This document shows positions 3,938-63,688 of a stretch of DNA of 64,000 nucleotides, piece by piece (the first letter of the stretch is position 1; each line of letters opens with the position of its first letter). The stretch lies in assembly GCF_003660455.1 (NCBI RefSeq), contig NZ_QZVR01000004.1, positions 310,001-374,000 on the forward strand. The letters run 5' to 3'. The stretch comes from Nocardioides ferulae (GTDB taxonomy: Bacteria > Actinomycetota > Actinomycetes > Propionibacteriales > Nocardioidaceae). The position numbers and the translations under genes are program-made. The notes beneath the pieces are model-generated. The model did no database searches. It was not told where the DNA came from and saw only the letters and a list, made by a program, of their open reading frames with translations.

Positions 3938-4074
3938 GACTCAGATCTTGCCGTCCGGCCAGGGATCACGCATCCGTCTTATCCCCTATCCGCCCCCGAC
4001 GAAAGTATCGGGGCCACCCCCGAGGTGCCTCTACCCTATGGCTGACTTCCTACCATACTCGGTATGTGTGGCGC

Positions 4075-35382: not shown

Positions 35383-36168
35383 GTGACCACGGTCGAGCAG
35401 GACATGTCGGAGCCCCGGACCACCGGCCAGGTGGCCGCCCGCTGCGAGGGGCTGCGCAAGGTCTACGGCGAGGGCGAGACCGAGGTGGTCGCGCTCGACG
35501 CGGTGACCGTGGCGTTCGCCAAGGGGCGGTTCACCGCGATCATGGGACCCTCGGGGTCGGGCAAGTCGACCCTCATGCACGTGATGGCCGGTCTCGACGA
35601 GGCCACCGCCGGCCAGACCTGGATCGGCGAGACCGAGCTGACCACCCTCGGCGACAAGGGCCTGACCCGGATGCGCCGCGACATGGTCGGCTTCGTGTTC
35701 CAGTCGTTCAACCTGGTGCCGACGCTCTCCGCGCTGGAGAACATCACGCTCCCGATGGACATCGCCGGCCGCAAGCCCGACACCGCCTGGCTCGACACGG
35801 TGATCGACACCGTCGGCCTGCGCTCGCGCCTCTCTCACCGGCCCGCCGAGCTCTCCGGCGGCCAGCAGCAGCGCGTGGCCTGCGCCCGCGCCCTGGCCAG
35901 CCGGCCCGAGATCATCTTCGCCGACGAGCCGACCGGCAACCTCGACTCCCACAGCGGCAGCGACGTGCTGGCGTTCCTGCGGATGTCGGTGCGCACGATG
36001 GGCCAGACCGTCGTGATGGTCACCCACGACCCGGTGGCCGCGTCGTACGCCGACCGGGTGCTGTTCCTGGCCGACGGGCGGATCGTCGACGAGATGGCCG
36101 ACCCCACCGCCGACCGGGTGCTGGAGCGGATGAAGGCGTTCGACCCCGCCTCTGCCAAGGAGGCGTGA
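35383..36168 (+). CDS. ABC transporter ATP-binding protein (MacB/LolD type)
   Basis: 261 residues from GTG 35383, preceded by GAGGGAGG. Walker [10 protein letters not shown] (K61), Q-loop [10 protein letters not shown], signature LSGGQQQR, Walker [14 protein letters not shown] and the H-loop THD are all present. It powers the FtsX-like permease encoded 1 bp downstream. Systems of this kind export lipids, lipoproteins or peptides, or act mechanically on cell-wall enzymes. Confidence 0.95.
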
Positions 36169-36169
36169 G

Positions 36170-38710
36170 GTGCTGCGCAACGCGCTCCGCAACCTGCTCG
36201 CCCACAAGCTGCGACTGCTGCTCAGCGGCGCGGCCGTGGTCCTGGGCGTCGCGTTCATCGCCGGCACCCTGACCTTCACCGACACCCTCAACCGCACCTT
36301 CACCAGCCTCTTCGAGGACACCTCGGCCGACGTCAACATCACCCCGAAGGCGGCCTTCGAGACCGGCCTGGCCGGCACCGGCGTCACCTCGTCGGAGTCC
36401 TCGGTGCCCGAGTCGATGGTCGCCGAGGTCGCCGAGGTCGACGGCGTCGCGCTCGCGGCCGGGTTCGTGCAGGCCGAGGGCGTCTACCTGCTGGACCGCG
36501 ACGGCGAGCCGGTCGGCACCGGCGGTGCGCCAGGCATCGGCACCAGCTGGGCCGAGACCGACGAGCAGCTCGGCATCGCCACGATGGTCGAGGGCGAGCC
36601 CCCGGTCGGTCGCGCCGAGATCGCCATCGACACCAACACCGCCGAGAAGACCGGCTACGGCGTCGGAGACCGGGCCGCGGTGCTCACCCCCGGGCCGCGG
36701 CTCGTCGCCGAGGTCGTCGGCGTGTTCAAGTTCGGCGACGACGGCGGCACCGCCGGTGCGGCGATCACCGCGTTCGACCTGCCCACCGCCCAGGAGGTGA
36801 TGCTCGAGCCCGGGCAGCTGAGCGGCATCAGCGTCATCTCCGAGGACGACGTCTCCGACGACGTCGTCGCCGACCGGATCAGCGACGTCGTGGGCAGCGG
36901 CTACGACGTCAAGACCCGCGCCGAGCAGGTCGAGGACGGCGCGGCCGCGCTGGAGGAGGAGCTCTCGTTCATCAACACGTTCCTGCTGGTCTTCGCCGGC
37001 GTGGCGTTGTTCGTGGGCAGCTTCTTGATCCTCAACACCTTCTCGATGCTGATCGCGCAGCGCACCCGCGAGCTGGCCCTGATGCGGGCGCTGGGTGCCA
37101 GTCGCCGCCAGATCACCACCGAGGTCCTCGTCGAGGCACTGCTGCTCGGCCTGGCCGGCGCCACCAGCGGCCTGGCCGTCGGGTTCGGGCTCGCCTACGC
37201 ACTCAAGGCGCTCTTCGGCCAGATCGGGCTCACCCTCGACGGGTCGCTGCGGCTGACCGTCGACGCGGTGGTGTGGTCCTACATCGTCGGCGTCGTGGTC
37301 ACCGTGCTGGCGGCGTACCTGCCGGCGCGGCGGGCCGCCCGGGTCTCCCCGGTGGCGGCGATGCGCGCCGACCTGGTCACCCACTCGAAGCCGCTGCGGA
37401 CCCGCACGCTGATCGGCGTGGCGCTGAGCGTCGTCGGGGTCGCCGCGCTGCTGGCCGTGACCCTGCCGGAGGAGGGCTCCGGGCTGCTGCTGGCCCTGGG
37501 CGCCGCCTGCCTGCTGCTCGCGGCGATCACGTTGAGCCCGGTGCTCGCCGTGCCGTTCGTCCGGTTCGTCGGGGTGCTGCTGCCCCGGCTCGCCGGCAAG
37601 ACCGGCCACCTGGCCCGCGAGAACGCCCTGCGCAACCCGCGCCGGACCGCCGCGACGTCGTCGGCGCTGATGGTCGGGCTGGCGCTGATCACCGGCTTCA
37701 GCATCATCGGTGCCTCGGCCCGGGCCTCGGTCGACGAGCTGGTCGACGACGCGCTGGCCGCCGACTACGTGGTCTCGACCGCGATCGACCAGCCGTTCAG
37801 TCCCGACCTCGCCGACGACCTGCGCGAGATCGAGGGCGTCGAGTCGGTGACCCAGGAGCGGTACGGCGTCGCGCTCGTCGAGGGCGAGCAGGACTTCTTC
37901 GTCGCCTACGACCCGGCCACGATCGAGCAGGCGCTCAACGTCGAGATGGCGTCCGGAGACGTGCAGGGCATGGCCGGCAACGGGGTCCTGGTCTACGAGT
38001 CGGTCGCCGAGGACCGCGGGTTCGTGATCGGGGACGAGCTCGAGTTCGTGATGCCCAACGGGGAGAGCGCGGCGCTGGTGGTCGGCGGACTGCTCGACGA
38101 CAACGCCCCGATCGGCCCCTACGTGATGTCGCTGGAGACCTACGACAGCACCGGCGGCGTCGCCGTCGACCGCTCGCTCTACGTCGACGTGGCCGACGGC
38201 ATCGACGCGGCGGCGGTCAAGGCCGAGATCGCGAGCGCCGTCGACGCCTTCCCGATCGTCGACCTCAAGGACGCCGAGCAGTTCAAGGACGAGCAGCGCG
38301 GCCAGGTCGACCAGATGCTGATGCTGATCAACGCGCTGCTGGTGCTCTCGGTGCTGATCGCGGCGCTCGGCGTCGTCAACACGCTGGTGCTGTCGGTGAT
38401 CGAGCGGACCCGCGAGCTGGGCCTGCTGCGAGCGCTGGGCATGAGCCGGCGGCAGGTGCGCCGACTGGTCCGCCTGGAGTCCGTGGTGATCTCGCTCTAC
38501 GGCGCCGTGCTCGGTCTCGGGCTGGGCATCGTGCTGGGCTTCACGCTGATCCGGTTCCTGCGCGCCGACGGCCTCACCGAGACCGCCGTGCCGATGCTGC
38601 AACTGGTGCTGTTCCTGGTGCTCGGCGGGGTGATCGGCGTGATCGCCGCCGCGCTGCCGGCCCGCCGGGCCGGCCGGTTGAAGGTGCTCGACGCGATCGC
38701 CACGGAGTAG
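36170..38710 (+). CDS. FtsX/MacB-like ABC transporter permease
   Basis: 846 residues from GTG 36170, directly after the ATPase stop. A first membrane helix (~14-36) and a MacB-type extracytoplasmic domain are followed by an FtsX-like core ([42 protein letters not shown]). Then come two central helices, a second periplasmic domain ([27 protein letters not shown] start) and a second FtsX core ([26 protein letters not shown]), ending with [14 protein letters not shown]. This duplicated ~10-helix form is common in actinobacteria. Cargo unknown; the flanking two-component genes may regulate it. Confidence 0.93.
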
Positions 38711-38714
38711 CCGA

Positions 38715-38753
38715 CCGGTGGTCGAGCTTGCCGGCCGGTGGTCGAGCTTGCCG
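38715..38753. repeat. Two direct copies of a 19-bp intergenic repeat
   Basis: CCGGTGGTCGAGCTTGCCG at 38715-38733 and again at 38735-38753 (20-bp period), just after the permease stop. The second copy continues into AGACC, giving a GGTGGTCGAGCTTG...GAGACC form resembling short dispersed repeats seen in related actinobacteria. Confidence 0.85.
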
Positions 38754-38781
38754 AGACCGCGGCACGTCCGGGCGTCGCTCC

Positions 38782-40314
38782 TCAGCGGAGCGGCGTCCGG
38801 AGCAGCACCACGGTGCCCGCGCCAGGACTGCTCCGGACCTCCAGCACGCCGCCGCACAGCCGCGCGCGCTCGCGCATCGTCTGCTGGCCGAAGCCGCCGG
38901 TGCTCACTGCCAGGTCGAAGCCGCGGCCGTCGTCGCTGACGGCGACCTCGACCCCGTGCCGGTCGGCGGAGACTCGCAGCTCGGCGCGGGTCGCGTCGGC
39001 GTGCTTGACGACGTTGTGCAGCGCCTCGCGCACCAGGCGGGGCAGGTGTTCGACCAGCGGAGCCGGCAGCGCGGGCAGTCGGGCCGGTGAGAAGGAGACG
39101 TCGACCGGCAGCCCGTCGAGGCGGGTCACGTCGGCGGCCACCGCCGTGAGCAGGTCGGCCAGGGTGGCGTCGACCGGGCAGTCCCGGCCGTGCCCCGGAC
39201 GCAGCTCGGCGACCAGCTCGCGCAGCTCCGCGGTGGCCTGGCGGGAGAGCAGCTCCAGATCCTGGGCCGCCTCGCGCGCCAGGTCGGGGTCGTCTCCGTC
39301 GAGGGCACGCCGGATCACCTGGGCACGGGCGTGCAGCGAGAACAGCGCCTGGCTGACGGAGTCGTGCAGGTCCCGCGCGATCCGGCTGCGCTCGGCGTCG
39401 ACCGAGCGCCGCGACACCTGGCGCCGGATCAGGTCGGCGCCGAGGGCCACTCCGGCCTGGTCAGCCGAGGAGCACCAGAACGCGACCTCCGCCTCCGAGG
39501 GGGCGATCAGGCCCGGCGGCAGCACCACCAGCAGGCAGCCCGCCAGGGCGCCCGCCGAGCGGAAGCCGATCAGCACCATCCCCGCCCACGGATCCCGCGA
39601 CAGCGCCGGCGCCCACGCGGCGGTGCGCTCGCCGCGCCGCCACCGGTCGGCGGCGTCGGAGAGGTAGACGCTGCGGCCGCCGGCCAGGTCGTCGGTGCCC
39701 GGCAGGTCGGAGACCAGCGCCTTGCTCGCCGCCACCAGGTCGGCCAGCCCGGGGTCGGTGCCGGACGCGGCGGCGACCTCCAGCACACCCGAGCGGTCCT
39801 CGACCAACAGTGCTGCGGCGATCGCCCGGCTCCCTCCGGTGACCTCGCGGACCAGCGACTGCAGCACCTCGCAGCGGTCGACGCCCGACTCGTGCCAGCG
39901 CGCCGCAGTGGCGGCGGCGCGCTGGGCGCGGCGTACCTTCGTGGTCTCGTGGAAGATCGCCGGCGCCAGCTCGGTGCCGTCGGCGGCGCGCACGACGGTG
40001 CCCGACCACGTCATCTCGCGCTCGCTGCCGTCGGGGCGCACCACCGTGCTGACGTAGAACTCGGTGTCACCGGCGCGCTGGTCGGCCTCGAGGCGCAGCA
40101 GCACGTCGCGCTCATGCTCGGGGAAGTGCAACAGGTAGTCGCGGCCCTCCAGCTCCCGGAACGGCCGGCCCATCAGCGCCGCCCCGGCGGGGTTGAGGTA
40201 GACCCACGTGTGGTCGTCGCCGGTGACGCAGACGCCGTACGCCGTGGTCTCGATCAGGTCGATGAGTGCCTCGAGGCCGAGCTCTCGCAGGGTCGCTCGC
40301 CCGCGCGTCGTCAC
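38782..40314 (-). CDS. PAS-GAF sensor histidine kinase (NarL-partner type)
   Basis: 510 residues from GTG 40314, with GGAGG directly upstream. PAS domain about 15-125 (VYLNPAGAALMGRPFRELEG), a GAF-like segment about 140-300, then HisKA_3 with RIARDLHDSVSQALF (H317) and a HATPase domain (VREALHNVVKHADA, DDGRGFD, GGFGQQTMRERA). All catalytic boxes are intact. No membrane helix is seen, so it is a cytosolic sensor. It is divergent from the degenerate kinase and response regulator (102-bp gap), and no other regulator is adjacent. Confidence 0.9.
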   Translation of the reverse strand: MTTRGRATLRELGLEALIDLIETTAYGVCVTGDDHTWVYLNPAGAALMGRPFRELEGRDYLLHFPEHERDVLLRLEADQRAGDTEFYVSTVVRPDGSEREMTWSGTVVRAADGTELAPAIFHETTKVRRAQRAAATAARWHESGVDRCEVLQSLVREVTGGSRAIAAALLVEDRSGVLEVAAASGTDPGLADLVAASKALVSDLPGTDDLAGGRSVYLSDAADRWRRGERTAAWAPALSRDPWAGMVLIGFRSAGALAGCLLVVLPPGLIAPSEAEVAFWCSSADQAGVALGADLIRRQVSRRSVDAERSRIARDLHDSVSQALFSLHARAQVIRRALDGDDPDLAREAAQDLELLSRQATAELRELVAELRPGHGRDCPVDATLADLLTAVAADVTRLDGLPVDVSFSPARLPALPAPLVEHLPRLVREALHNVVKHADATRAELRVSADRHGVEVAVSDDGRGFDLAVSTGGFGQQTMRERARLCGGVLEVRSSPGAGTVVLLRTPLR

Positions 40315-40416
40315 GACCTCCAGCCTCCCACCACTCCTCCTCGCGGATGAGGCGATCGGCGAAGATCGCCCGCCGGATCGAGGCATCTCGGGGCGGCGGC
40401 GGCCTAGCGTCGAGAC

Positions 40417-41649
40417 ATGAGCCCACCGCGCCGCCTGGTCCCCGCGGTGCTGCGGCGGCCGTTCGTCCAGGACCTGGTGTTGGCCCTCGTGCTCACCGGG
40501 TTCTCGCTGCACGCGCTGTGGCACGCGACGCCGGTGGTGGAGCTGGAGTTCCGTGAGCCCGACCTGCTGGGGGTGGTGCTGACCGTCGCCGGTGCGGGCG
40601 GTGTTGCGCTCCGAAGCCGGGCGCCGGTCACGAGCCTGCTGGTGACCGCCTTCGGCACGTTCGGCGTCGCCCACCTGGTCTACAGCCAGGGGATCGGCGG
40701 CTTCGCGCCGCTGTTCGCGCTCTACTCGGTCGCCGTCGGCAGGTCGTTCCGGACCAGTCTGGGGCTCACCCTGGTCACGGCCGGCGGGTTGAGCAGCGTG
40801 CTGGTGTTCGGCCCCTACGAGCCGACGCCGGGCGAGTGGGCGTCGAACCTGGTCGCCTGCCTGGCGGTCTGGACGCTGGGGCGCTCGGTGCGCACCCGCC
40901 GTCAGCACGCCCGGACCGTGGAGCTGCGCAACCTCGCGATGCAGGAGGTCCGGGAGGCCGAGACCAGGACGCTCCTGGTCGAGGAGCGCGCGCGCACCGT
41001 GCGGGAGATGCAGGACCTGGTGGCGCACCACCTCACCGAGGTCAGCGTGCAGATCGCGGCGGCCCGCCGGGTGCTGGCCCGCGACCCGGGCTCGGCCGAG
41101 GTCCTGCTGCAGGGAGCCGAGAGCACCGGTCGCGCGGCCCTGGAGGAGATGCGCCGGGCCGGGGGGCTGCTCGGGGCCGAGCCGGCCGCCTCGCTGCGGC
41201 CCCAGCCGACCCTCGACGACCTCGACGAGCTCGTCGCCAGCCAACGGGCCGCGGGCCTGCAGGTCGGCTACCGCCGCACCGGTCGGCTCGCCGGTGCCGC
41301 GCCCGGGCTGGAGCTCACCGTCTTCCGGCTCGTCGAGGAGGCGCTGCGCCAGATCCGCGGTCGAGCCGCCGCTGCCCCCTCCGGCCTGCCGATCGAGATC
41401 TCCCTCGACGCCCTCGACGGGGAGCTCGACGTGAGCGTGACCTGCGGTCCGGACCGGGACACCGTCAGCTGGGAGCACGAGCACGAGCACGAGGCGGAGG
41501 GGCTGCCGCTGCTGCTCCGGCTGCGGGCCCGCGCCGCGGCGTACGGTGGCGAGCTGAGCCTGGGCCACCGCCGCGACGGCAGCTTCCGGCTCTCCGGCCG
41601 GTTCCCGCTCGAACCGGTGACCCACCCCTCGCCCGGTGCCGGGCAGTGA
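40417..41649 (+). CDS. Degenerate membrane histidine kinase (phosphoacceptor His replaced)
   Basis: 410 residues from ATG 40417 (TAGCGT 6 nt upstream). Four to five membrane helices occupy ~17-160. The dimerisation region aligns with the H-box of HisKA_3 kinases, but the usual E-L-H-D is EMQD here: Q199 replaces the phosphoacceptor (the nearby H204/H205 are at the second conserved His). In the ATPase part the N-box Asn is lost (EEALRQIRGRA), and no DxGxG box is recognisable (VTCGPDRDTV). It probably cannot autophosphorylate and may act as a ligand-sensing pseudokinase. An intact response regulator follows 8 bp later. Confidence 0.85.
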   Translation: MSPPRRLVPAVLRRPFVQDLVLALVLTGFSLHALWHATPVVELEFREPDLLGVVLTVAGAGGVALRSRAPVTSLLVTAFGTFGVAHLVYSQGIGGFAPLFALYSVAVGRSFRTSLGLTLVTAGGLSSVLVFGPYEPTPGEWASNLVACLAVWTLGRSVRTRRQHARTVELRNLAMQEVREAETRTLLVEERARTVREMQDLVAHHLTEVSVQIAAARRVLARDPGSAEVLLQGAESTGRAALEEMRRAGGLLGAEPAASLRPQPTLDDLDELVASQRAAGLQVGYRRTGRLAGAAPGLELTVFRLVEEALRQIRGRAAAAPSGLPIEISLDALDGELDVSVTCGPDRDTVSWEHEHEHEAEGLPLLLRLRARAAAYGGELSLGHRRDGSFRLSGRFPLEPVTHPSPGAGQ

Positions 41650-41657
41650 AGGACGAC

Positions 41658-42332
41658 ATGACGATTCGGGTGCTGCTGGTCGACGACCAGCCACTGCTGC
41701 GCACCGGCTTCCGGCTGATCCTCGCCTCCGAGGACGACCTCGAGGTGGTCGGGGAGGCCGCCGACGGCGAGGTCGCGTTCGCCCAGGCCCAGGCGCTGAG
41801 CCCCGACGTGGTGCTGATGGACATCCGGATGCCGCGCCTCGACGGCGTCGAGGCGACCCGCCGGATCGTCGCTGCGCGCGGCGGCGACGGGCCGCCTCGG
41901 GTGCTGGTGCTGACCACCTACGACCTCGACGAGTACGTCGTGGAGGCGCTGCGGGCGGGCGCCTCCGGATTCCTGCTCAAGGACACCCCGGCCGAGCGAC
42001 TGGTCGACGCGGTGCGGGTGGTCGCCGGTGGTGAGGCGGTCGTGGCTCCGGCGGTGACCCGCCGGCTGCTGGACCGCTTCGCGCGGCTGCTGCCCGCCAG
42101 CCACCCCGACGCCGGCGGGAATGCCGCCGCCGAGACGCTGACCGATCGGGAGCACGAGGTGCTGCTGCTGGTCGCCCGCGGCATGTCCAACGCCGAGATC
42201 GCGGCCGCCCTGGTCGTCAGCGAGACGACGGTGAAGACCCACGTGAGCAACGTGCTGACCAAGCTCGGCCTGCGCGACCGGGTGCAGGCGGTGGTGTTCG
42301 CCTACGAGGCGGGGCTCGTGACTCCTGGATGA
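41658..42332 (+). CDS. NarL/FixJ-family response regulator
   Basis: 224 residues; ATG 41658 is chosen for its GAAGGA motif, though GTG 41646 overlaps the kinase stop. The receiver domain has D9/D10, phosphoacceptor D55 (LMDIRMPRLDG), LTTYD and K of FLLKDTP. A C-terminal LuxR HTH follows (LTDREHEVLLLVARGMSNAEIAAAL, TVKTHVSNVLTKL). All switch residues are intact. The cognate phosphodonor is unclear because the neighbour kinase is degenerate; the divergent PAS-GAF kinase is a candidate. Confidence 0.95.
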   Translation: MTIRVLLVDDQPLLRTGFRLILASEDDLEVVGEAADGEVAFAQAQALSPDVVLMDIRMPRLDGVEATRRIVAARGGDGPPRVLVLTTYDLDEYVVEALRAGASGFLLKDTPAERLVDAVRVVAGGEAVVAPAVTRRLLDRFARLLPASHPDAGGNAAAETLTDREHEVLLLVARGMSNAEIAAALVVSETTVKTHVSNVLTKLGLRDRVQAVVFAYEAGLVTPG

Positions 42333-42427
42333 ACGCGTCCGGCTCGGTCGTGTCGTCGCCGCGTTGTCCGTGCGCCGTCCTAGCCTGGCTGCCTCGGCGG
42401 GACCAGTCAGCGACGAGGGAGAGGCCG

Positions 42428-43597
42428 ATGGCGAGCCAGCGCGACGAGTGGGACGAGTCGACCGAGTCTGCCTGGCGTCGGTTCCGGGCCCGGCTGGCCG
42501 ACCGGATCGCCGAGGTCGGCGCCGACGAGAGGGTGGTGGTGGGCCTCTCGCCCGACGTCGATCCCGGTGTGCGCCCGCTGCCGATCGTCTCGGTGGAGCT
42601 CCTCGACGCCGACACGCTCCGCGTCGAGGCACCCGCCGTGCGGGGGTTCCCGCAGGAGGTGCAGCGTCGCGAGGCCGACCGGGCCGCGGTGCTGGTGGTG
42701 ACCGCGCTGCGTGAGGGGCGCGGCTGCCTGCACCCCTCGTTCCTCGACGCCGACGGTCTCGAGCACGACTCCGCGCCGTGGCCGCCGGCGGTGGCGGGCG
42801 TGCCTGCGCGGGCCGGCGACCCCGAGCCGCTCGCGGTCTTCGTCGACGACACCGACGAGCTGCAGGAGCGCGTCGACGCCGCGTTGGGGCTGATGTTCTC
42901 CCGCACGGTGCGCCACGACCCCGACGGCGACGTCCCGGTGGTGTGCGGGCGCTCGGTGCTCTACGTGCGGGTCGAGACCGACGAGCCGGTGGTGCGGCTC
43001 TACGCCGAGCTCGTGGTCGAGGTCGGCGACCTCGACCAGGCGCACCGCGAGGTGGGAGTGCTCAACCGGCGCTACCAGCACGCCAAGTTCTTCGTCCGCG
43101 ACCGCGAGGTCGTCCTCGAGCACCGGCTCGGTGCGCAGCCGTTCGCGCCCGCCCAGCTGCGCGAGGCGGTCTCGCAGCTGTGCGACGACCTCGACGACCT
43201 GGCCGCCGACCTCGCCGACCGGGTGGCCGGACGTCGCTACCTCGACGATCCGCCGCCGCCGGCTGTGGTGGCAGATGTCGCAGTGACCGCCGACGACGTC
43301 CACCCCGGCATGGTGGCGCTCCTCGAGCTGCTGCACGAGGGGTCGGTGCCGGTCCCCGCGGTGGCCGACCTGTTCGAGCACGACCGGCTCGAGCTGATCC
43401 GCCACCTGGTCCGGGTCCGCACCGACCAGGAGTCCTGTGGTGACCACGACGCCGACGTGGTGCTCCGTCACCTGCGTCGGGCCCTGCGCTACGTCGTCGA
43501 CGGTCACGTCGCGCCCGCCCACGTGGCCCCGCGCCGCGAGCAGCAGCTCTCACTGCTGCCCGAGGTCGAGAGCGACGAGCAGCTGCCGTTGGGCTGA
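42428..43597 (+). CDS. YbjN/TY-Chap-like protein of unknown role
   Basis: 389 residues from ATG 42428, after GGGAGAGG. The N-terminus AWRRFRARLADRIAEVGADERVVVGLSP resembles the N-terminal part of T3SS/YbjN-like peptide-binding chaperone families. The central ~150 residues (VPVVCGRSVLYVRVETDEPVVRLYAELV, then VLNRRYQHAKFFVRDREVVLEHRL) have the alpha/beta pattern of the YbjN fold. C-terminal region helical. These folds bind peptides and are often linked to secreted or polymorphic toxins, but none is adjacent. Family assignment is tentative. Confidence 0.65.
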   Translation: MASQRDEWDESTESAWRRFRARLADRIAEVGADERVVVGLSPDVDPGVRPLPIVSVELLDADTLRVEAPAVRGFPQEVQRREADRAAVLVVTALREGRGCLHPSFLDADGLEHDSAPWPPAVAGVPARAGDPEPLAVFVDDTDELQERVDAALGLMFSRTVRHDPDGDVPVVCGRSVLYVRVETDEPVVRLYAELVVEVGDLDQAHREVGVLNRRYQHAKFFVRDREVVLEHRLGAQPFAPAQLREAVSQLCDDLDDLAADLADRVAGRRYLDDPPPPAVVADVAVTADDVHPGMVALLELLHEGSVPVPAVADLFEHDRLELIRHLVRVRTDQESCGDHDADVVLRHLRRALRYVVDGHVAPAHVAPRREQQLSLLPEVESDEQLPLG

Positions 43598-43617
43598 CCG
43601 GCGTCGCGGTGGTGCTC

Positions 43618-44486
43618 CGGGTGGGAGGGGTTTCGCGGCTGCGCCGCGATGTCTCGGGGTGTGGCCTCTCGCTGACCTGTCGCTCGGGGTGGTGTGGTCG
43701 CCGCTGCGCGGGGCTTCGTGGTGATGGTGAGGACCGGGGGCGTGTGTGGGTGGGGCGGGTCGGCTGCGCCGGAGGGGCCCGCTCGGCCAAACCGCCCGCT
43801 CCGCTCGTTCCTCACGGAGCGGGGGCCAGGCCCATCCACGGCCTCGGGGCCCCTCCGGCTCCGCCGCCCCACCCCGCCGCTGGGCGCCGGGCTCACCGAC
43901 CGCGGGTGAGAGGGGGTTTCGCGGCTGCGCCGCGATGTCTCGGGCTGCCTGTCTGCGGGGTTGGTGACCCTTCGCTGACCTGCCACTCGTGGTCGATGTT
44001 CACCCGCTGACCCGTCACTTGTGGTCGATGGTGCCCCGCTGACCTGCCGCTCGTGGTGGGGGTGGTCGCCGCTGCGCGGGGCTTCGGGGTGCTGGTGAGC
44101 CTGGGGGTGGTTGTGGGTGGGGCGGGTCGGCTGCGCCGGAGGGGCCCGCTCGGCCAAACCACCCGCTCCGCTCGTTCCTCACGGAGCGGGGGCCAGGCCC
44201 ATCCACGGCCTCGGGGCCCCTCCGGCTCCGCCGCCCCACCCCGCGCCCAGCACCGGGCTCACCGGCCGCGGGTGGGAGGGGTTTCGCGGCTGCGCCGCGA
44301 TGGCTCGGGCTGCCTGTCTGCGGCGTTGGTGACCCTTCGCTGACCTGCCACTCGTGGTCGATGTTCACCCGCTGACCTGCCATTCGTGGTGGGTGAGGGG
44401 ACGCTGACCTGTCGCTCGTGGTGGGTGAGGGGGTGTTGACCTGTCGCTCGTGGTGGGTGAGGGGGTGTTGACCTGCCGCTCGTGGT
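43618..44486. repeat. Composite repeat element: 32-bp-period array with two long structured modules
   Basis: Non-coding 43598-44553 interval. An 18-bp core TGACCTGCCRCTCGTGGT occurs nine times, starting at 43673, 43976, 44008, 44040, 44341, 44373, 44405, 44437 and 44469. Within each run the spacing is exactly 32 bp. Two ~285-bp modules (43691-43975 and 44058-44340), ~90% alike by eye, separate the runs, giving a 366-bp higher-order tandem repeat. A tail fragment of the module also precedes the first core. Frames through it are low-complexity Arg/Pro/Ser and spurious. No transposase, and unit spacers are too short and too similar for CRISPR. Confidence 0.92.
43768..43859. repeat. Nested inverted repeats inside the long module
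   Basis: GCCGGAGGGGCCC (43768-43780) pairs with 43847-43859. Inside it CCCGCTCCG (43795-43803) pairs with 43815-43823. The same arrangement recurs in the second module at about 44135-44228, so folding is preserved between copies. Confidence 0.75.
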
Positions 44487-44553
44487 GGGTGGCAGGTCGT
44501 CTGCGCGGCGAGGTCTCGGCCCGGGCTCATCGGGCCGAGACCGCGCTGCGAGC

Positions 44554-45255
44554 TCAGGCGATCGTGACGCTGACGGTGTTCGAGCAGCTGGCGGCGTACT
44601 GGTTGAGCACGCTCTTCTCGGCGGAGTCGGCCGACAGCCCCCAGCGGATCTTCACCGCCACCCACTCGGCCACGTAACGGCACTTGTCGTAGGTGGGCAG
44701 CCAGGTGGCCGGGTCCTGGTCGCTCTTGGACTGGTTGACGTTGTCGGTGACCCCGACCAGGGTGCGGTAGTCGCCGAGGTCGTTGGCGAAGGCCTGGCGA
44801 CGGCTGGTGCTCCATCCGCGCGCCCCAGAGCCCCATGCCTCGGCCAGCGGCACCATGTGGTCGATGTCGACATCGGAGGCCGCAGTCCACGAGACCCGGT
44901 CGTAGTAGGAGAACCAACGGCCGGTCGCGACCGTGCAGCTCCCGGAGGTCGTGAAGGTGATCGGGGCGTCGGGCTCGGCCTCACTGATCAGCACCTCGGC
45001 CCGGGTGCTCTGGCAGTCGCCGTTGGCATCGACCCAGTGCGGGAACAGGCTCCGGTCGTAGCCGGAGTTCTGCTCCGCAGCGGTCGGGACCGCGGCGACC
45101 GCCTGGGCCAACGACCCGGAGAACGACGCGGCGTGCGCTGGTGCGGTGGGCACCATGGGCAGGACGGCGGCCACCATCGCCAGGGCGGCCGCCGCGACGG
45201 CGCGGCGCGACCGGACGAGCATCCGCGAGACCGCCGGCTCAGTTCCAGATCGCAT
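44554..45255 (-). CDS. Secreted HNH nuclease (GmrSD_C/DUF1524 type)
   Basis: 233 residues. ATG 45255 is chosen for GGAG seven nt upstream; it overlaps the upstream nuclease gene by 17 bp (ATG 45222 is an alternative). Signal peptide ending near TAPAHA. Catalytic core DIDHMVPLAEAWGSGA with the downstream asparagine (DNVNQSKSDQDPATWLP), as in DUF1524 HNH nucleases. Three or four cysteines are suitable for disulphides outside the cell. It probably degrades extracellular DNA together with the co-transcribed endonuclease-I-type enzyme. Confidence 0.87.
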   Translation of the reverse strand: MRSGTEPAVSRMLVRSRRAVAAAALAMVAAVLPMVPTAPAHAASFSGSLAQAVAAVPTAAEQNSGYDRSLFPHWVDANGDCQSTRAEVLISEAEPDAPITFTTSGSCTVATGRWFSYYDRVSWTAASDVDIDHMVPLAEAWGSGARGWSTSRRQAFANDLGDYRTLVGVTDNVNQSKSDQDPATWLPTYDKCRYVAEWVAVKIRWGLSADSAEKSVLNQYAASCSNTVSVTIA

Positions 45256-63501: not shown

Positions 63502-63688
63502 TTCCCACTCGGGGTCGGTGAGCCCGGCGCAGCCGACCCACCCCACCCACACACGCCACCGGTCCTCACCAGCACCACGAAGCCCCGCGCAGCGGCGGAT
63601 ACACCAACCACGAGCGGCAGGTCACCGCGCGAACACCAACCACGAGCGGCAGGTCACCGCGCAAACACCAACCACGAGCGGCAGGTCA
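63502..63688 (-). repeat. Inverted copy of the 32-bp repeat element
   Basis: Three 18-bp cores on the minus strand (ACCACGAGCGGCAGGTCA at 63607, 63639, 63671), again exactly 32 bp apart. They are followed on that strand by a shortened long module (63603 down to ~63502) that matches the start and end of the 43.7-kb module but lacks the inverted-repeat middle. It accounts for most of the 63342-63745 gap; 63342-63480 shows nothing recognisable. Confidence 0.9.

Follow-up and report, generated by a model that had tools for sequence, protein, structure and literature searches.

RetS is a pseudo-histidine kinase that signals through GacS without kinase activity. BumS of Campylobacter jejuni is described as a phosphatase-only sensor, and its phosphodonor is described as unknown (PMC11796366). 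In HisKA_3 proteins, the reported phosphatase residues are the Asp that follows the acceptor and a Gln or His four residues further on (DxxxQ/H; PMC11502775); the DxxxQ form is also reported in PMC3510030, and the DxxxH form is absent from the main text of PMC9429925. The acceptor His is cited as nonessential for the phosphatase activity of NarX, and in the phosphatase state of DesK the acceptor His is reported to be buried, away from the reaction centre (PMC5231405).

We analysed a 64,000-nucleotide stretch of the Nocardioides ferulae genome (hereafter, the window), in which an intact sensor kinase gene is encoded divergently from a degenerate one that is followed by a response regulator gene. 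The features are listed in Table 1.

Table 1. Positions of the features discussed in the text (numbering of the window).
Feature	Positions	Strand	Basis or description
MacB/FtsX-type ABC transporter	35383..38710	+	ATPase 35383-36168, permease 36170-38710
Divergent intact PAS-(GAF-like)-HisKA_3-HATPase_c kinase, candidate phosphate donor	38782..40314	-	Sequence, Pfam
TAGCGT, candidate -10 element	40405..40410	+	Six bases 5' of the pseudokinase start codon
Pseudo-histidine kinase, 410 aa	40417..41649	+	DUF7134 membrane part, HisKA_3 DHp, degenerate ATPase-like domain
Membrane part, residues 15-160	40459..40896	+	DUF7134, E 3.5e-11; five helices and the start of a long sixth (model)
DHp domain, residues 188-256	40978..41184	+	75% identical to the orthologue
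Q199 codon CAG, phosphoacceptor position	41011..41013	+	Sequence, homologue alignment
D200-L-V-A-H204, retained DxxxH phosphatase-type motif	41014..41028	+	Sequence, homologues; motif name as reported in PMC11502775
Degenerate GHKL-fold domain, residues 262-400	41200..41616	+	Without N-box Asn, without G1; loop of low confidence at the lid
NarL-type response regulator, intact receiver (D55) and GerE DNA-binding domain	41658..42332	+	Sequence, Pfam

The open reading frame at 40417-41649 on the forward strand (REMQDLVAHHLTEV) encodes Gln (Q199) at the phosphoacceptor position, as an earlier note on this DNA had claimed. Among 82 homologous kinase cores, which were chosen by a motif allowing only His or Gln at the acceptor, the acceptor was His in 82 of 82; the N-box Asn, the Asp after the acceptor and a His at the position of H204 were likewise present in all 82. 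One kinase (L119) did not match the motif and was left out of the 82, and its acceptor is His too. Without the motif filter, His was found in 203 of 209 kinase regions from redundant, overlapping loci, and the six others were five overlapping copies of the window gene and the gene of Nocardioides caldifontis. The further losses claimed in the note were also found: the N-box Asn is replaced by Q312, and the G1 motif is gone, the region reading LDVSVTCGPDRDTVSW. Residue 363, the G2 glycine in 81 of the 82 intact homologues, is Leu. The protein thus lacks the acceptor His and the N, G1 and G2 boxes of an active HisKA_3 kinase, and it has the predicted fold with lost catalytic residues that defines a pseudo-histidine kinase, a loss conserved in its orthologue. 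The DHp domain is recognizable (HisKA_3, 41.2 bits against a Pfam cut-off of 24), and the DHp phosphatase residues expected in a BumS-type sensor, here D200 and H204, are present in both species. Pfam gave no HATPase_c match at E values up to 1; only DUF7134 and HisKA_3 were matched.

The AlphaFold2 model of the pseudokinase (mean pLDDT 87.8, pTM 0.56) shows helices in the membrane part, one long helix in the DHp domain and an ATPase-like domain of GHKL type; residues 341-360, the site of the would-be ATP lid, form a low-confidence loop. The model and the DUF7134 match agree with the note that the membrane part and the fold pattern persist, and the ATPase lobe, for which a structure prediction had been proposed, keeps its GHKL-type fold in the model. 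In a Foldseek search, DesK entries ranked first, among them H188V and the DesK-DesR phosphatase complex. VIA-align 2 superposed 120 residues of the CA domain on DesK H188V with an rmsd of 2.5 and Z 15.4. DivL, and RetS in complex with the GacS DHp, were matched at Z 11.7-11.8, and these matches carry no weight of their own because they are tied with ordinary kinases. Judged from its sequence, the protein is a membrane sensor no longer able to make phosphohistidine.

We scanned species genomes with patterns from six peptides, a method that reaches close relatives only, and obtained six relatives. One orthologous block was found, in N. caldifontis (L001), with the same gene order of permease, divergent kinase, pseudokinase and regulator; the identities were 66%, 65%, about 50-51% and about 83-84%, respectively. 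The N. caldifontis pseudokinase has Gln at the acceptor, His in place of the N-box Asn and no G1, and its stop codon overlaps the regulator start codon (ATGA). In the five other relatives (Micromonospora, 34-36%), the acceptor is His. The orthologue alignment proposed in the note therefore indicates that the loss of the acceptor is not an isolated or sporadic mutation; the orthologues with His that would have pointed to one were represented only by distant homologues (31-36% identity) outside the orthologous block. Both pseudokinases also have Glu at position 307, which is Gln in 82 of the 82 intact cores, and they share Leu at 363. These common departures suggest that the dead state is older than the species split.

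The block was found in two genomes only. The pseudokinase was matched at E 1e-40 in one of 215 genus genomes, the window's own, where at most eight candidates per genome were scored, and the divergent kinase was matched at 1e-60 in one of 209, again its own. A two-row profile of the divergent kinase matched two of 394 class genomes at 1e-50 (its own and L135). The corresponding pseudokinase profile matched 51 of 342 genomes of the order at 1e-40, and the matches whose locus was examined all have His except the window's own. A plasmid search at E 1e-20 returned one record, with 36.7% identity over 74% of the query. The two pseudokinases form one clade with a long stem and a support of 100/100; the placement of this clade among the intact kinases is not settled, and the bootstrap did not converge. 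In a quick tree of the regulators, those of the two blocks fell in a group of 11 (SH-aLRT 94) together with the family f4 regulators and the long-branched L116 regulator of the window's genome. The nearest regulators after the orthologue are those of f4 loci L008-L015 (70-73%), where the adjoining kinase is intact (HDVVAHH, His in 8 of 8). Within 18 kb around each of these eight loci (L068-L075), the divergent kinase query was matched over the kinase core only, so that no PAS kinase resembling it lies beside the f4 pairs. We infer that the pseudokinase and its regulator descend from a pair with a working kinase, whose activity was later lost.

The sequence constraint is uneven across the pseudokinase. 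Comparison of the two orthologues gave an identity of 75% for the DHp domain and of 34% for the CA domain; their regulators are about 83-84% identical. The control set comprised 182 intact-kinase pairs with a regulator identity of 78-88%; these pairs share members and are not an independent sample. The control means were 78% for DHp and 66% for CA, with a CA minimum of 46%. The difference of 41 points between the DHp and CA identities of the pseudokinase is greater than in all 182 controls (largest 36), and its CA identity is also outside all of them. The DHp identity is lower than in 125 of the 182 controls, which indicates that the conservation of the docking domain is ordinary rather than raised. 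In the CA domain, 40% of the second codon positions differ compared with 75% under shuffled pairing, and 51% of the third positions differ compared with 55%, near saturation. These values indicate that the CA part of the pseudokinase is still under constraint.

The regulator gene begins 8 bp past the pseudokinase stop codon. The coupling to an intact response regulator described in the note was confirmed, since the receiver residues D9, D10, D55, T86 and K108 are all present; the docking segment is DDQPLLRTGF (DDQ-type). A TAnnnT motif is found at equal spacing from the assigned start codon in both species (TAGCGT-N6-ATG in the window and TACCGT-N6-GTG at 3968 in N. caldifontis L001), and we take it to be a candidate -10 element. 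Such an element six bases before the start codon is known for leaderless actinobacterial transcripts, and the pseudokinase gene is likely to be transcribed in this form. No match to a sigma-70-type promoter or a terminator was found within 38650-42500. The MacB/FtsX transporter genes are convergent with the divergent kinase gene, and the permease occupies the same place in N. caldifontis; because it is kept in place, the block may signal to the transporter or work together with it. A TY-Chap/YbjN-type chaperone gene (42329-43597) directly follows the regulator gene. A search of the N. caldifontis locus at E 1e-5 did not detect it, and it is therefore probably outside the block. At 43673-44491, there are repeats spaced 32 nt apart (TGACCTGYCRCTCGTGGT...), with 10 copies in one family within 43400-45100. 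They sit partly inside duplications of 142-153 nt, and a 14-nt core occurs 10 times in the window, where 1.46 occurrences would be expected; three of the 10 lie at 63609-63686.

The divergent kinase had been described in the note as a fully intact, soluble PAS-GAF kinase. Its catalytic residues are present (H317, N434 and DDGRG at 461-465), and Pfam matched PAS, HisKA_3 and HATPase_c. GAF was not matched by Pfam in this protein; a homologue (L135, 36%) scores GAF_2, which makes the PAS-GAF architecture likely. As to solubility, no membrane family was matched by Pfam. Kyte-Doolittle hydropathy gave one peak above 1.6 in the divergent kinase and two in the pseudokinase, a scan that did not discriminate between the proteins. 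The structure predicted for the divergent kinase from three sequences was poor (mean pLDDT 54.5) and was set aside.

The catalytic residues are lost and the regulator-gripping surface is kept, which suggests that the sensor probably switches the regulator off rather than on. The retained D200/H204 motif, which the earlier note had missed, suggests that the pseudokinase may itself act as an enzyme, and the invariance of H204 in intact relatives makes it better read as a phosphatase residue than as a substitute phosphoacceptor. We tentatively favour, at somewhat less than an even chance, a sensor that docks the regulator and most likely dephosphorylates D55 without kinase activity, the phosphate coming from elsewhere with the divergent kinase as the leading candidate. 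The pseudokinase would dock the regulator encoded downstream of it, as the conserved docking helix suggests; D200 and H204 would position the water that strips the phosphate from D55, and the ATPase-like domain would be a structural partner of the helical bundle. The phosphatase activity would be under signal control, and the circuit would place one kinase input and a separate phosphatase input on one regulator. This reading is weakened by DrBphP, whose phosphatase activity is reported to require ATP and to be aided by its CA domain (PMC8292422), because ATP binding looks lost here. In addition, the phosphatase activity of an evolved ChrS variant with a broken CA domain was apparently lost, as inferred by its authors (PMC9491836). 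For these two reasons, a non-enzymatic gatekeeper, which would bind the regulator or the neighbouring kinase and shield or present it in a signal-dependent manner with no chemistry, is a serious rival, if a rather unlikely one. A conserved DHp with the ATP-binding residues gone fits this alternative, and there are precedents: the RocA pseudokinase is reported to act through CovS, with which it co-immunoprecipitated although a two-hybrid assay gave no signal (PMC7028121), and the evolved ChrS pseudokinase reportedly promotes the phosphorylation of ChrA by HrrS (PMC9491836). However, docking alone would not need both D200 and H204, and both are unchanged in two species; moreover, the pseudokinase and the neighbouring kinase have only distantly related DHp domains, which makes a mixed dimer less likely than for the paralogues ChrS and HrrS. 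A functionless kinase gene on its way out would agree with the pseudokinase evolving fastest of the four genes (50% identity against 65% for the kinase, 66% for the permease and 84% for the regulator). It is improbable given that the frame is open in both species, the DHp is ordinarily constrained, the CA second codon positions are constrained, the candidate -10 element is kept at equal spacing and the fold model is confident. Least credible is a protein that is still a kinase, with H204 or H205 accepting the phosphate or with the adjacent kinase phosphorylating it in trans; H204 and H205 are both present in the two species, but H204 is His in 82 of 82 intact homologues and hence no new acceptor, and the ATP boxes are lost.

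The donor is a separate matter, since a reading of the pseudokinase as a phosphatase is also compatible with the divergent kinase being a bystander and another kinase or a small phosphodonor acting in its place. We consider the bystander alternative doubtful but quite possible, and the chance that the divergent kinase donates phosphate to the regulator about even. The 4.75 Mb genome gave 16 HisKA_3 matches, and each of the 14 outside the block has a GerE match at a distance of 0.8-1.35 kb on its own strand; 12 of the 14 were also read as a His kinase beside a regulator, as was a thirteenth (L114), the fourteenth being the one beside L116. The divergent kinase is thus alone among the 15 non-pseudokinase matches in having no such regulator, and it adjoins the pseudokinase-regulator pair in both genomes. 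The HisKA_3 list may be incomplete, because the 16 do not include a kinase-like core next to L108. A bystander is favoured by L107 and L112, two receiver-containing NarL-type regulators of this genome that showed no kinase core within 1.5 kb, and also by the docking residues. The DHp helix of the divergent kinase is HDSVSQALFS, that is, DxxxQ with Phe at acceptor+8, and all 10 fetched kinases of this type, many of which are closely related to each other, were paired with a DDH-type regulator. In all 28 fetched DxxxQ pairs, the regulators were DDH in 23, DDQ in two, DDL in two and DDS in one, whereas the window regulator is DDQ-type, as are most partners of DxxxH kinases. Together, this kinase and this regulator would be a Gln-Gln combination. 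At kinase acceptor+5 and the regulator residue after DD, 110 pairs gave His-Gln in 73, Gln-His in 23 and Gln-Gln in two, and a second tally of the same residues in 116 pairs gave 86, 16 and three, respectively. This covariation may reflect descent rather than direct coupling, and it is to that extent a confounded argument for a bystander. The closest full-core homologue of the divergent kinase among 147 genomes (L137, 44%) pairs with a DDQ regulator, which differs elsewhere in the docking helix from the window regulator. We presume that DesK Q193 and DesR Q10 are equivalent to the acceptor+5 and post-DD positions, in which case DesK-DesR itself is seemingly a Gln-Gln pair. Q193 is reported in PMC5231405, and Q10 is taken from a PDB title. 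A pairing model (log-odds of kinase and regulator docking residues, 104 pairs) performed at chance level with similar pairs left out (median true-partner rank 14 of 21), and its scores were not used because it failed its own validation. The three-part signalling unit proposed in the note is thus supported in the linkage of three genes in both genomes and the conserved docking helix; in regard to the donor, the gene accounting speaks for it and the docking class mostly against it. We regard as speculative, and rather less than probable, a division of kinase and phosphatase roles over two linked genes, in which an ancestral bifunctional membrane sensor was stripped of its kinase half and became a dedicated, ATP-independent, signal-gated phosphatase, and the divergent PAS kinase took over phosphorylation of the regulator.

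DivL, RetS and RocA differ from the window in that their target is another kinase, and their HisKA type and gene setting differ as well. DivL (PMC9491836) and RocA (PMC7028121) are reported to be pseudo-histidine kinases that signal without kinase activity, like the window protein. BumS-BumR resembles the window in having a sensor without residues that autophosphorylation usually requires, a cognate regulator and a donor elsewhere (PMC11796366). BumS is reported to be cytoplasmic, whereas the window sensor has a membrane part, is of the HisKA_3/NarL type and has a linked candidate donor; its phosphatase activity is predicted. ChrS/HrrS of Corynebacterium glutamicum is similar in that an actinobacterial pseudokinase has a regulator that obtains its phosphate from a different kinase (PMC9491836); in the window, that kinase is a candidate. 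ChrS is described as carrying a laboratory-evolved CA frameshift with the His present and the phosphatase activity apparently lost, whereas the window pseudokinase has a natural loss of the acceptor common to two species, and its CA fold is predicted to persist. DesK-DesR of Bacillus subtilis is the best structural match and is reported as a transmembrane HisKA_3 sensor with a phosphatase state (PMC5231405). DesK differs in being bifunctional, with His188 and ATP binding, and is about 17-21% identical to the pseudokinase over the aligned parts. Among the titles and abstract beginnings listed from open-licence literature on pseudo-histidine kinases and sensor phosphatases, a limited scope that included papers on DivL, RocA, ChrS, BumS and DrBphP, we found no report of a natural HisKA_3 pseudokinase with a linked donor kinase. 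A linked candidate donor would make the kind of donor question raised by BumS (PMC11796366) testable. The system would also reveal if ATP binding is dispensable for a HisKA_3 phosphatase, and by what route a sensor with both activities becomes a one-way switch. Pseudo-histidine kinases are already known as a kind, and the window contains a variant with an adjoining candidate donor kinase.
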